Assembly (NCBI GenBank): GCA_016204695.1
Contig: JACQKD010000007.1
Span: 1-55,180 of the forward strand
Source of the DNA: Candidatus Kaiserbacteria bacterium
GTDB lineage: Bacteria; Patescibacteriota; Minisyncoccia; Phycocordibacterales; UBA918
Direction of reading: 5' to 3'
Length of the DNA stretch: 55,180 nucleotides
This document shows positions 12,708-53,223 of this stretch, piece by piece (the stretch's first letter is position 1; each line of letters opens with the position of its first letter). Made by a program: the position numbers and the translations under genes. The notes beneath the pieces are model-generated. The model was given only the letters and a program-made list of their open reading frames with translations. It ran no database searches and had not been told where the DNA came from.

Positions 12708-12840
12708 TTATCCGAAGTTGACTCGTTCCCCCCGAAGAAGCGCAAATCCTTTTTGCACGTTTTTGAGCGCCTCGTCGCTGACATCAAACAGCACCGTATG
12801 CGACCCTTTGATATAGTTGATGTCGGCAAACGCGGCAACA
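12708..12840 (-). pseudogene. Truncated NUDIX hydrolase relic (paralog of 52705-53223)
   Basis: FADINYIKGSHTV|LFDVSDEALKNVQKGFALLRGERVNFG matches FADINYVKGSHTV...LFDVSDEALKNVQRGFALLRGERIDVG with an in-frame 35-aa deletion; NUDIX box absent. Confidence 0.85.
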
Positions 12841-13017
12841 ACGGCCGTCTGCGGGCAGAGTAGATTTGAGAAGATTCTTAAAACCAAGAATCGACTGTGC
12901 ATGAAAATCTTTAAACCTTCGGCTCTTTATAAAAAAATAAACACAGGGTTGGAGAAACTCCTACCTGCGTTCTGTAGTGAAAATTGTCCGAAGACAAATT
13001 AAGTTCTGGAAGAACTA

Positions 13018-13456: not shown

Positions 13457-14380
13457 TCACTCTATGATCGCCTCGTTTAGAAACGAGCCAAGTACGATCA
13501 TCCGCTTGCTCATAGCGGCAAGTAACGTGAAGATCGCATTCATGACACGTGGATTTTTATGCACATCCATCTCTATGCAGAACACTACGCGATTGTCCGC
13601 ACCTCCGAGCGGAATTTGTGGAGCATATCGAACATTCACCTTGAGCGCCGCCATGGGGCTCAAGATGTCATGAAGGACGCCCGCCTCGTTCCGGTCAGGC
13701 CACAACAACACGGCAACCCCCGATCCAAAATCGTTTTGGACTATGCGATGTCCTTTCACCACAAGGTAAAAGTGCGTGTAATTTTCTTTGACATCCGCTA
13801 CATCGTCCACGAGCGGCGTCAAATTGTACAGCCCGGCGCAAAAGCGAGACGCGATCGCAGCGCGCGACGGATCTTGGATTTCCGCAACAGACTGTGCGGC
13901 GCCGGAAGTACTGGACATTGGCTCCAGTGAGGCGTCAGGAAGAATGCGCCGAAGCATTCGAGCGCACTGCCCCAGGGCCTGTCCGTGCGAGACCACCGTC
14001 TTGATGTCACTCAATTGCACCGAAGGATCACAAGCGAAGAGCTGATGCCTGATACGCAATGTAACCTTACCCACGACATGAAATGTCTCCTCCGAAACAA
14101 AAGAAGGCTGGGTGGATAGGTAGTACTTCTCATGACTCGGTCCTCTCATGAGATAGCGCATCACACCAGCCACGTATCCCTCAACTGTGTTGTAAACCGG
14201 GACGATACCCATTGGCAAATCAGCTTCACCGCTACCGTTTTCAATCTCAGCAAGCACATCCTGATTGTCTTTCACAAACTCAATTTCTACAGTTCCATGG
14301 AAGACGTTTGCGTTTAGCCATTGAGCTACACAATCTCCGTAGGATCCTCCCGGCCCCAAACACACTAATTTGCGACTCAT
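13457..14380 (-). CDS. pheA: Prephenate dehydratase (PDT plus ACT-like C-terminus)
   Basis: CLGPGGSYGDCVAQ..., MGIVPVYNTVEGYV, STSGAAQSVAEIQDPSRAAIAS, ENYTHFYLV. Confidence 0.8.
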   Translation of the reverse strand: MSRKLVCLGPGGSYGDCVAQWLNANVFHGTVEIEFVKDNQDVLAEIENGSGEADLPMGIVPVYNTVEGYVAGVMRYLMRGPSHEKYYLSTQPSFVSEETFHVVGKVTLRIRHQLFACDPSVQLSDIKTVVSHGQALGQCARMLRRILPDASLEPMSSTSGAAQSVAEIQDPSRAAIASRFCAGLYNLTPLVDDVADVKENYTHFYLVVKGHRIVQNDFGSGVAVLLWPDRNEAGVLHDILSPMAALKVNVRYAPQIPLGGADNRVVFCIEMDVHKNPRVMNAIFTLLAAMSKRMIVLGSFLNEAIIE

Positions 14381-14430
14381 CAGACACTCTCCCCTACCGT
14401 TTTGTGGTTATCAACGAACACTCCCAAAAC

Positions 14431-14461
14431 AAAAACCGCTGCCCGGAGGGTAGCGGTTTTT
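14431..14461 (-). terminator. Attenuator terminator of pheA leader
   Basis: aaaaaccgct gcccggagggt agcggttttt, T-run on the minus strand. Confidence 0.85.
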
Positions 14462-14481
14462 GTTTCAGATTTCTTGTAACA

Positions 14482-14544
14482 CTAACGCACCCTTCGGGTT
14501 TCCGAGGTTCTAAAGAAACCAAAGAAGAGTGCGTTGTGTATCAC
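14482..14544 (-). CDS. pheL: Phe leader peptide MIHNALFFGFFRTSETRRVR
   Basis: GTG ATA CAC AAC GCA CTC TTC TTT GGT TTC TTT AGA ... TAG between promoter and attenuator terminator upstream of pheA. Confidence 0.8.
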   Translation of the reverse strand: MIHNALFFGFFRTSETRRVR

Positions 14545-14551
14545 GGGGGTA

Positions 14552-14579
14552 ACTATACCGTCTAGTTTATAAAAAGCAA
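14552..14579 (-). promoter_or_regulatory. Promoter of pheA attenuator
   Basis: Minus strand TTGCTT-16-TATAGT, 7 nt before the GTG of the leader ORF. Confidence 0.65.
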
Positions 14580-14687
14580 GCACGTCGAAATATAAATAGA
14601 TTGAGGGCTCCCCGGAAATCGCATGTGAATACGACTCCGAGAGAGCCCTCGGGTCAGCCAATATGCTGACATGGGATCGACAGGAGT

Positions 14688-15008
14688 TTATTTTGCGTAG
14701 GGATACACCGCCGACCCCACGAGAGACGGGTCTTCAATCGCGGTAGACTGCCCACTGCAGGAAACGATCCTGCGGACTTTTTGTGTTAAGTCTTCGACAA
14801 CTCCACTGTCGAAGTCTCTGCCTACAAATACCTTTCTGGCAGCCAATCGAGCCCACGGGCCTCTCCCCCTCTTGGTGAAAAAGGCCACGGACCCCTTCGG
14901 GGCCACTTCGTCTGGCTGAAGCCAGCGAATGTGACATCCTACCCTTTGAGCTGCGGCGAGAATGGACCTAATAGCAGAAAGATCGTTCTGGGTAGCAACA
15001 ACTAACAT
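14688..15008 (-). CDS. Orphan 106-aa protein downstream of the Leu-rich leader
   Basis: MLVVATQNDLSAIRSILAAAQRVGCHIRWLQ...; strong SD AAGGAGG 6 nt upstream. Confidence 0.65.
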   Translation of the reverse strand: MLVVATQNDLSAIRSILAAAQRVGCHIRWLQPDEVAPKGSVAFFTKRGRGPWARLAARKVFVGRDFDSGVVEDLTQKVRRIVSCSGQSTAIEDPSLVGSAVYPYAK

Positions 15009-15153
15009 CGTCAGCCTCCTTATCGGATACATGGACGCCCTGCCTTCACGCAGATACCATTTCAACCCAGCATCAGCGAGGCGGCAAAATAAGCGTCGGA
15101 ACGCCGACCTCACCGCCTCGCTGATGCATTTTGTGGAAAGAACTGAAGAACAA

Positions 15154-15190
15154 ACGAAAATCGACCTCCCAAAGGAAGGCCGATTTTCGT
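15154..15190 (-). terminator. Attenuator terminator of the Leu leader
   Basis: acgaaaatcg...cgattttcgt, 10 bp plus an inner ccuccc/ggaagg stem; minus strand followed by TTTGTTCTTC. Confidence 0.75.
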
Positions 15191-15206
15191 CGTATGCTTC
15201 TACTAT

Positions 15207-15302
15207 CTATGAAAACATACGAGAACCAGCCTTCCTTTCAAGAAGGACTAGTCCTAGCACGAGAAGCTGGCTCTGTTGCCGACTTACTTCTATCGTTTTC
15301 AT
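15207..15302 (-). CDS. Leu-rich leader peptide MKTIEVSRQQSQLLVLGLVLLERKAGSRMFS
   Basis: Six Leu codons in CTT CTC GTG CTA GGA CTA GTC CTT CTT just before the pairing segment. Confidence 0.75.
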   Translation of the reverse strand: MKTIEVSRQQSQLLVLGLVLLERKAGSRMFS

Positions 15303-15309
15303 ACAGAGT

Positions 15310-15337
15310 ATAGTATGCCGACGCAAAAATATGTCAA
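15310..15337 (-). promoter_or_regulatory. Promoter of the Leu attenuator
   Basis: Minus strand TTGACA-16-TACTAT, 7 nt before ATG. Confidence 0.7.
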
Positions 15338-15368
15338 GCAACCCGGACTCGGAATAGGAAAAGCAGCT

Positions 15369-15575
15369 CTAGGGAGAGCTGCTCGAGGTGGCGTCATAGG
15401 TGACTTCGACAAAACTATACATCTCCGGCGGGAACTCTGTCATTCCCGTCAGGCGATCCCAGGTCAGACGCTCAAAGTAAAGCTGCTCGTATTCAGCCTG
15501 AGTGGGACGTCTGTAGTGTCGTGCCGGACTCTGACTTTTGCAACTGTTCTCCGCTACTACTAAAGGAACTGGCAT
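15369..15575 (-). CDS. Orphan 68-aa protein downstream of the Ile leader
   Basis: MPVPLVVAENSCKSQSPARHYRRPTQAEYEQLYFERLTWDRLTGMTEFPPEMYSFVEVTYDATSSSSP; GAGGGAG SD-like. Confidence 0.6.
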   Translation of the reverse strand: MPVPLVVAENSCKSQSPARHYRRPTQAEYEQLYFERLTWDRLTGMTEFPPEMYSFVEVTYDATSSSSP

Positions 15576-15626
15576 CGTTCTTCTCCCTCTTCTTTGAAGA
15601 GCAATATGTCCTGTAACACCGCACAA

Positions 15627-15660
15627 AAGAAAAACTCCTCTTGGCAGAGGAGTTTTTCTT
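15627..15660 (-). terminator. Attenuator terminator of the Ile leader
   Basis: 15-bp perfect stem aagaaaaactcctct tggc agaggagtttttctt. Confidence 0.88.
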
Positions 15661-15688
15661 GAGGAAACTGGAATCTAGTCGCGCGCCA

Positions 15689-15760
15689 TCAAGCAAACTC
15701 CTCGAGAGAGGAGATAATAATCGCAATGATGGCGCCCGTCAGATGTTGTTGCGATGTCAC
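15689..15760 (-). CDS. Ile-rich leader peptide MTSQQHLTGAIIAIIISSLEEFA
   Basis: GTG...ATC ATT GCG ATT ATT ATC TCC TCT CTC GAG GAG TTT GCT TGA. Confidence 0.78.
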   Translation of the reverse strand: MTSQQHLTGAIIAIIISSLEEFA

Positions 15761-15766
15761 ATCCTT

Positions 15767-15796
15767 ATATTAAACGAGAATGTCCCACTTGGTCAA
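15767..15796 (-). promoter_or_regulatory. Promoter of the Ile attenuator
   Basis: Minus strand TTGACC-18-TAATAT, 6 nt before GTG. Confidence 0.65.
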
Positions 15797-15864
15797 GTTG
15801 CGAGAAATAAAAACGATGCACTCGTAGCTCAAAGGGCAACATAGAGTGCACCGTTTCAAGTGGA

Positions 15865-15969
15865 CTATTGCCCACTTGGCCGCGCCGGGGGTGGCGCAGG
15901 CTTCTGGGTTCCGGACCCTTTCCCTTCTGCAGGGGGGATGGGGTCCGAACCTGTGTAACCCAGCACCAT
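15865..15969 (-). CDS. Orphan 34-aa Pro/Gly-rich protein downstream of the aromatic leader
   Basis: MVLGYTGSDPIPPAEGKGSGTQKPAPPPARPSGQ; SD AAAGGAG 5 nt before ATG. Confidence 0.5.
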   Translation of the reverse strand: MVLGYTGSDPIPPAEGKGSGTQKPAPPPARPSGQ

Positions 15970-16077
15970 AAGAACTCCTTTCTCAAGACCGCCACCATGA
16001 CGGCCTCCAGAGAACCTCGTTGTCCTCTGGCATCGAGGCGGGGTGTTCCCTGCGCGCGATGCCAAGTGACAAACGAA

Positions 16078-16102
16078 AACTCCTCTCGGAGTGAGAGGAG
16101 TT
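16078..16102 (-). terminator. Attenuator terminator of the aromatic leader
   Basis: aactcctctc ggagt gagaggagtt; minus strand followed by TTCGTTTG. Confidence 0.75.
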
Positions 16103-16122
16103 GTCGGGTGTGTTCTGTCTTT

Positions 16123-16221
16123 TCAGGCCTTTGCCATACTGACCGCACCGATCCAACTCCTCTTACTAAAGAAGTAATAGAAGGCAAAGAAATAAATGGC
16201 AACGGTCACAATGTAATGCAT
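16123..16221 (-). CDS. Aromatic-rich leader peptide MHYIVTVAIYFFAFYYFFSKRSWIGAVSMAKA
   Basis: Run TAT TTC TTT GCC TTC TAT TAC TTC TTT preceding the antiterminator segment. Confidence 0.7.
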   Translation of the reverse strand: MHYIVTVAIYFFAFYYFFSKRSWIGAVSMAKA

Positions 16222-16235
16222 GATGTCGATGTAAC

Positions 16236-16262
16236 ACTATACCCACCCCCACACGTTGTCAA
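16236..16262 (-). promoter_or_regulatory. Promoter of the aromatic attenuator
   Basis: Minus strand TTGACA-15-TATAGT; -35 overlaps the trpA stop codon. Confidence 0.6.
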
Positions 16263-17053
16263 TCGGCACCGGTGAGTTGCTTCACCTGTGCGGATATGTT
16301 CTGGAGCAAGCGTTTTTTATTCGAAAGATTATCGGTGATGGTCTTGACGAGCGCACTGCCGACAATGGCGCCATCCGCTCCCTGTTTTTCGAGAAGCGCA
16401 ATATGTTCCCTCTTTGAAATGCCGAAGCCCACGGCAAGCGGCAAGTCGGTCTGTCGCCGTATTCGTTTCAAAAGCTTGGGCATGTCCGCAGAAAGGGACG
16501 CCCGTGCGCCGGTGACGCCGAGCACGGATACAACATACAGATACCCTTTTGCGTAACGGAGAATTTTTTTGAGCCGCTCGGGAGTCGTAGTGTGCGCCAC
16601 GAGAAAGATGGGGTCGATGCCGGCCTTTGCCGCCGCCTGCGCGAACGGTTCTATTTCCTCCACCGGCACGTCGGGGATAAGCACGCCGTCGACGCCTGCG
16701 GCTTTCGCTTCTGTATAAAATCGCTCGATTCCTTTCTGGTAAACGATATTCGCGTAGACGAGCACGGTGATCGGTACGTCGGTGGACTCGCGAACTTTTT
16801 TGATGTATGTGAAGACGTGATCAGTGTCCATCCCGGCGCCGAGCGCGCGAATATCGGCGGCCTGGATCGTCGGGCCGTCCGCGAGCGGATCGGAATACGG
16901 GAATCCTATTTCCAAAAGATCAGCGGGCGACGCGATCGTTTTTGCAATCGATACGCTCGTTTCGAGGTCGGGATCTCCCGCAACGAGAAACGGCATGAAC
17001 GCGATCCTGCCTTCGGCTCTCGTCTCTTTGAATTTCTGCTCTAGCCGTGTCAT
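16259..17053 (-). CDS. trpA: Tryptophan synthase alpha subunit
   Basis: [49 protein letters not shown]. Confidence 0.95.
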
Positions 17054-20937: not shown

Positions 20938-20966
20938 GGTGATAGTGATGGTAGATACTGCACAAA

Positions 20967-21003
20967 CAAAAACTTCTCCCGCAAAGTCCGGGAGAAGTTT
21001 TTG
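20967..21003 (-). terminator. trp attenuator terminator
   Basis: caaaaacttctcccg...cgggagaagtttttg, 15-bp stem and T-run on the minus strand. Confidence 0.88.
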
Positions 21004-21023
21004 TGGCTGGTGTCTGGGAGATA

Positions 21024-21107
21024 TCAAGCCAACGCGAAAATCGGACTTTGCAGAGAAGTTTGCAAGGCCCACCAGTTCAACGAAATTGCGCGTCGGTTTG
21101 ATTTCAT
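21024..21107 (-). CDS. trpL: Trp leader peptide MKSNRRAISLNWWALQTSLQSPIFALA
   Basis: Tandem TGG TGG upstream of an antiterminator-competent segment and terminator before trpC. Confidence 0.85.
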   Translation of the reverse strand: MKSNRRAISLNWWALQTSLQSPIFALA

Positions 21108-38095: not shown

Positions 38096-38175
38096 TGTCC
38101 GTATCAGTATAGCAAAAACAGATTACGCGCAGATCAGCCTCATGGGCCAACCTGCGCGTAAAAACAACCAACACT

Positions 38176-52704: not shown

Positions 52705-53223
52705 TTATCCGACGTCGATTCGTTCCCCCCGAAGAAGTGCGAACCCTCTTTGCACGTTTTTGAGCGCCTCGTCGCTGACATCAAACAGCGTCATCGCCTC
52801 ATCCTCGGCGGCCCACACGTACCCGCTGTGATCTTCGGGGTGGAGAACAATGTTCTCCACCGGGTCGAGAAATGTCGCAAAATACACGATCTCTACGGTA
52901 TGCGACCCTTTGACATAGTTGATGTCGGCAAACGCGGTAAATGGATCGCCCACGTTGATCCGCATACCCATCTCTTCCTTGATCTCGCGCGCAAGTCCTT
53001 CCTCAAGACCTTCCCCGAAGTCGATATGTCCTCCAGGAAGCTCGTAGAAACCGGGGAGAAACTTCTTCGTCTCCGCCCGCTTGGGCAAAAACACTTTCTC
53101 CACCCCGTCAAACACATGGTGGATGAATGCCGACGCGGTGACGACCTGCTGTCCGTGCGCAGGTGTCTCACTGTCGTGGATAATCTTGTTTGTCATAACG
53201 TTATACAAAATCCTTTGGGTCAA
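52705..53223 (-). CDS. NUDIX hydrolase
   Basis: GGHIDFGEGLEEGLAREIKEEMGM. Confidence 0.85.
   Translation of the reverse strand: MTQRILYNVMTNKIIHDSETPAHGQQVVTASAFIHHVFDGVEKVFLPKRAETKKFLPGFYELPGGHIDFGEGLEEGLAREIKEEMGMRINVGDPFTAFADINYVKGSHTVEIVYFATFLDPVENIVLHPEDHSGYVWAAEDEAMTLFDVSDEALKNVQRGFALLRGERIDVG

Follow-up and report, generated by a model that had tools for sequence, protein, structure and literature searches.

A run of isoleucine codons, followed at once by alternating complementary blocks and a terminator, raises the question of what an isoleucine-sensing switch could be regulating when the gene behind it encodes an orphan protein of 68 amino acids. The locus lies in a stretch of Candidatus Kaiserbacteria DNA that was analyzed as a whole (55,180 nucleotides; hereafter, the window). 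A first-pass annotation had proposed an Ile-responsive attenuator controlling this protein. Our analysis indicates that the unit is probably a transcription attenuator of the ribosome-mediated, trp type, which responds to isoleucyl-tRNA and has a single gene, that of the 68-aa protein, under its control. The mechanism itself is already known; the novelty lies in the lineage, in leaders that are probably leaderless, and in the orphan and apparently non-biosynthetic targets. A survey in 2010 placed the demonstrated leader-peptide systems in Proteobacteria and Actinobacteria alone and extended the list to Firmicutes (PMC2965389). In the literature outside preprints, we found no report of leader-peptide attenuation in the candidate phyla radiation.

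All elements of the Ile unit could be located on the minus strand of the window. A sigma-70-like promoter (TTGACC-18-TAATAT, 15767..15796) stands 5' of the leader, and the GTG start codon is situated 6 nt past the -10 box. Because the start codon follows this box so closely, the mRNA of the leader peptide is probably leaderless, or close to it. The reading frame extends from GTG 15760 to TGA 15689 (15689..15760) and encodes MTSQQHLTGAIIAIIISSLEEFA, with five Ile residues in six codons (11-16). As the first-pass annotation had described, the control run ATC ATT GCG ATT ATT ATC leads directly into TCC TCT, within this leader, and all four alternating CTCCTC/GAGGAG blocks, with their 1:2, 2:3, and 3:4 pairings, were found. 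The strand, the GTG start, and the sibling units discussed below are additions to that description.

Block 1 (CTCCTC, 15713-15708) can form a hairpin with block 2 (GAGGAGTTT, 15695..15703), as CTCCTC-TCTC-GAGGAG (15698..15713). Block 2 is also the 5' half of a 9-bp antiterminator, GAGGAGTTT:AAACTCCTC, in which its partner is block 3 (AAACTCCTC, 15647..15655). The other partner available to block 3 is block 4 (GAGGAGTTTTT, 15640-15630), with which it forms the intrinsic terminator, AAGAAAAACTCCTCTGCCAAGAGGAGTTTTTCTT followed by TTTTG (15627..15660), and this hairpin does fold as the 15 pairs that had been claimed for it. Pairing analysis indicates that the antiterminator and the U-run terminator are mutually exclusive. 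The terminator is the more stable of the two at equilibrium, and therefore the switch must be kinetic. The 196-nt leader folds at -81.1 kcal/mol, versus a mean of -52.3 for shuffled sequences (z -6.7), and none of 200 shuffles is as good. Another terminator (15361..15384, minus strand) lies over the stop codon of the 68-aa ORF, and the unit is therefore monocistronic. A weak alternative pairing joins block 2 to TTTCCTC just 5' of the attenuator's terminator, and AACTCCTC occurs in eight copies in the window, versus 1.35 expected.

The dependence of the antiterminator on ribosome position was modeled by placing each codon in turn in the ribosomal A site, with 12 nt covered downstream, and by counting the bases of the terminator's 5' arm that find an upstream partner before synthesis of the 3' arm. 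In this model, approximately 12 of the 18 arm bases are paired for stalls up to Ile15 (12.0 at Ile14), and the value falls to 8.9 at Ile16, 4.7 at Ser17, and 4.9 at the stop codon, such that the drop in antiterminator pairing coincides with the end of the Ile run. Arm pairing stays above zero from Leu19 to Ala23, and shuffles match the observed maximum in 9 of 300 cases; taken alone, the modeled result for the Ile unit is good but not overwhelming. The same stall logic holds in the model for the Phe/Tyr, Leu, Phe, Trp, and Met units.

These features suggest how the switch may operate. Transcription would start at the GTG or within a few bases of it. When Ile is plentiful, the ribosome would pass the Ile codons, reach the stop codon, and cover block 2, upon which the 3:4 hairpin would form and RNA polymerase would halt short of the 68-aa ORF. 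Under Ile shortage, a ribosome stalled at Ile codons 14-15 would sit over block 1, block 2 would be available for pairing with block 3, and the terminator would not be formed in time. Read-through would then allow the 68-aa protein to be made from a message needing no Ile. We infer ribosome stalling, read-through, and the role of the 68-aa ORF as functional target from the sequence.

The case for an attenuator is strong because the Ile unit is one of a set. Four further units (Trp, Phe/Tyr, Leu, and Phe) lie on either side of it on the same strand and in the same layout, with 79-119 nt from start to terminator and 15-28 nt from stop to terminator. The Trp attenuator (MKSNRRAISLNWWALQTSLQSPIFALA, 20966..21107; terminator 21004-20966) precedes trpC. 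The Phe attenuator, which has a GTG start (MIHNALFFGFFRTSETRRVR, 14427..14544; terminator 14465-14427), precedes its cognate target pheA (13457..14380, minus strand), encoding prephenate dehydratase (PF00800, 1.2e-37). Two of the five attenuators in the window are thus placed before a cognate biosynthesis gene. The Phe/Tyr attenuator (MHYIVTVAIYFFAFYYFFSKRSWIGAVSMAKA, 16078..16221; terminator 16102-16078) precedes a 34-aa ORF, and the Leu attenuator (MKTIEVSRQQSQLLVLGLVLLERKAGSRMFS, 15153..15302; terminator 15191-15153) precedes a 106-aa ORF. No Phe leader was recognized at pheA relatives within the order, and no convincing Trp attenuator was found in the examined flanks of trpC loci of the phylum.

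The 34-aa ORF (15865..15969, minus strand) has the Shine-Dalgarno sequence AAAGGAG, is Pro/Gly-rich, and lacks Phe. A strong inverted repeat, GGTTCGGACCC...GGGTCCGGAACC, lies inside it, and for this reason the segment could be an RNA instead. The 106-aa ORFan (14688..15008, minus strand; Shine-Dalgarno sequence AAGGAGG) is not clearly Leu-poor, as 27% of windows are as low, and its single-sequence structure model is poor (pLDDT 39). Weak matches to this protein within the order were short and mostly interrupted by stop codons, and were discarded. Between the Leu attenuator and this ORF is a 15-bp perfect inverted repeat, GCATCAGCGAGGCGG...CCGCCTCGCTGATGC (15127-15070, minus strand). Directly 3' of pheA is a 107-aa ORFan (13445-13122, minus strand) with a strong Shine-Dalgarno sequence; a search of 289 other genomes from the phylum returned no relative of it. 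A NUDIX-like fragment (12708-12902, minus strand) at the locus edge matches the end of an intact NUDIX gene lying 40 kb away (52705-53223, minus strand), a sign of rearrangement there.

To describe how common such units are, we used a detector that looks for a leader run, a terminator, and a run-dependent antiterminator. It was applied to approximately 363 kb of the organism's own genome (approximately 0.84 Mb), including the window. The detector returned four matches in the locus of approximately 8 kb, all on the same strand and representing four of the five known units. Two matches were returned in the other 355 kb or so, one of them a convincing Met attenuator. Shuffling the locus 60 times with dinucleotide composition preserved gave a mean of 0.02 matches. 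Because the thresholds were set after the locus had been seen, these counts are a description, not an independent test. Matches at window position 38161, L042 17570, L050 3250, and L106 8745 (all minus strand) were judged to be noise, and none of the detector matches in approximately 370 kb from relatives was a convincing further attenuator. Searches with Rfam models gave no T-box in 14400-16300, even at a permissive threshold. Within the window, gathering scores were reached by tRNAs only, and the Ile unit reached none of the amino-acid leader families. Matches to mir-3688 and rnk_pseudo were far below gathering score and were dismissed as hairpin noise.

The Met unit provides a check outside the locus. 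Its leader (...TNMMMGMMTSAYEGAFLRN), near 14270 on the minus strand of L038, starts 6 nt past a TATAGT box, and the attenuator and its target gene together occupy 14372-13438. The target is a 260-aa protein with a SAM hydroxide adenosyltransferase (SAM-HAT) C-terminal domain. Seven other genomes of the order have a SAM-HAT gene, and one, which belongs to a different family (G055, L086), carries the Met leader MTFGRNSNMMMEMMT. The leader core is common to the two families (NMMMGMMT and NMMMEMMT) and precedes SAM-HAT genes that are 49% identical. The G055 unit differs in both terminator and antiterminator sequence; its antiterminator, CGGAGGGG:CCCCTCCG, matches its own terminator, and an equal score is obtained with 37 of 300 shuffles. 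When searched as a DNA pattern, the Met run occurs in only these 2 of 228 genomes, both times before a SAM-HAT gene. This apparent recurrence across families is comparative support of a kind that the Ile unit lacks. The sibling units that precede cognate genes number three (Trp-trpC, Phe-pheA, and Met-SAM hydroxide adenosyltransferase). In all, at least six amino-acid attenuators are present in the genome of approximately 0.84 Mb, and three of them precede small ORFans, not biosynthetic enzymes.

The target of the Ile unit is more difficult to assess. The 68-aa ORF (15369..15575, minus strand) follows the Shine-Dalgarno-like sequence GAGGGAG. Relatives were found neither in 48 other genomes of the family (its genus is represented in the set by this genome alone), nor in 85,488 species searched with exact-peptide seeds, nor among viral contigs, phage records, and plasmid records. 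The protein had no match in Pfam, NCBIfam, or PDB. In every search that was run, then, it behaved as the domainless orphan it had been taken for, and no relatives of the whole Ile unit were found. Of the 20 amino acids, Ile is the only one missing from the protein. This absence was noticed after the fact and is shared by 1.2% of windows of that length in host proteins; it fits a product needed while Ile is scarce. The codon score of the ORF lies within the bottom 3.5% of the values for genuine coding pieces, and it is not separable from that of off-frame stretches; pheA, the adjoining 107-aa gene, and a HAD gene of the same locus also score below trpA/B/C. A single-sequence structure model is poor (pLDDT 59), with one helix at residues 26-43. 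We regard the ORF as likely to be a functional gene; a starvation-response or scavenging role for its product would be a guess. As to the proposal that an Ile-responsive attenuator controls this protein, the attenuator is upheld by its anatomy, the stall model, and the siblings, whereas control of the ORF is supported, not proven, by its position, its Shine-Dalgarno-like sequence, the close terminator, and the lack of Ile. The main uncertainty is whether the ORF is a working gene or a remnant behind an orphaned switch.

Gene content bears on this question. No ilvD was detected in the organism's own genome assembly (approximately 96% complete), and this gene is present in 14 of 14 control genomes. 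Because ilvD was not detected, the cell is probably unable to make Ile, in which case an Ile attenuator would report a failing supply. A TrpE-type chorismate-binding enzyme is likewise missing from this genome and present in all 14 controls, and the trpC-BA pathway may therefore be partial, or a salvage route. In the order, whose genomes measure 0.4-1.2 Mb, trpC is otherwise nearly absent. These genome sizes, together with gene content, suggest a place for the organism in the candidate phyla radiation (Patescibacteria). We tentatively propose, at slightly less than even odds, that the near-leaderless Phe/Tyr, Ile, and Leu attenuators form a bank of starvation sensors for imported amino acids in a largely auxotrophic, ultra-small host. 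They would control the 34-, 68-, and 106-aa ORFans, not biosynthesis, and these products may have compositions adapted to the amino acid in short supply.

The same gene content can be read differently. A working Ile attenuator might have lost its target when branched-chain and aromatic genes were deleted, leaving small ORFs that are chance frames or remnants. Of the five attenuators in the locus, three precede ORFans whose codon usage is not host-like, ilvD and chorismate-binding enzymes were not detected in the genome, and the rarity of trpC in the order suggests that the locus may have been acquired or may be in decay. The resemblance of the NUDIX fragment (12708-12902) to the end of the 52705-53223 gene also points to rearrangement nearby. 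However, a Shine-Dalgarno-like sequence is well placed before every one of the small ORFs, and the 68-aa ORF is Ile-free and has a stop codon that abuts its terminator. Moreover, decayed operons should show decay of the switch too, and all three ORFan-linked attenuators look intact. On balance, we consider loss of the target unlikely.

Much less probable is that the regulated product is an RNA, with read-through or terminated transcripts serving as small RNAs, or with a trans-acting leader peptide. The downstream segments are structured (including the strong inverted repeat in the 34-aa ORF), coding is not evident from the codon score, and there is a precedent for a leaderless attenuator RNA with trans roles in S. 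meliloti rnTrpL/peTrpL (PMC7298713). Yet this explanation sits poorly with Shine-Dalgarno-like sequences before open frames of 68 and 106 codons and with the lack of any Rfam family above gathering score, and it would make the absence of Ile from the 68-aa frame meaningless. Coincidence, in the form of a terminator with repeated CTCC/GGAG blocks beside a meaningless short frame, is hardly credible. Sequences of the CTCC/GGAG type are common in terminators here, and the antiterminator alone is matched by the 9 of 300 shuffles, but chance would have to account for five similarly arranged units that share a strand, of which two stand before cognate genes, and for a Met unit that recurs across families.

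The presence of at least six attenuators in one genome, with one leader core common to two families, indicates that ultra-small bacteria use attenuation. The reading of Ile and Leu in a genome with no detectable ilvD points to small proteins that may be induced when the outside supply fails, and such attenuators could offer a handle on how ultra-small cells sense nutrient supply.

Several characterized systems resemble the Ile unit in part. The enterobacterial ilvGMEDA, ilvBN, and leu leaders, and that of ilvBNC in Corynebacterium, likewise combine a run of branched-chain codons with an exclusive antiterminator and terminator (PMC1183508, PMC11857589). However, ilv and leu leaders control branched-chain biosynthesis, whereas the Ile unit has an Ile-only run and an ORFan target in a genome with no detectable ilvD. 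As the ilv/leu class is defined by an Ile/Val/Leu biosynthesis target and the gene downstream here is an ORFan, the unit falls outside it. The sibling unit at pheA follows the same logic as Phe_leader (RF01859) and aligns with it over the full length at 29.4 bits (E 0.024), which is below the gathering score of 55, such that it is not a member by the Rfam threshold. In the S. meliloti trpL attenuator, as proposed for the Ile unit, the transcript begins with the start codon of the leader or immediately beside it; its target, unlike that of the Ile unit, is trpE(G) (PMC7298713). Finally, the leucine-rich attenuator peptide of S. aureus and Ile sensing in L. monocytogenes show branched-chain supply being read through a leader peptide or as an environmental signal; those systems act on ilv-leu operons and, in Listeria, on CodY-linked virulence genes, whereas the Ile unit precedes an ORFan (PMC5794164, PMC5864092).
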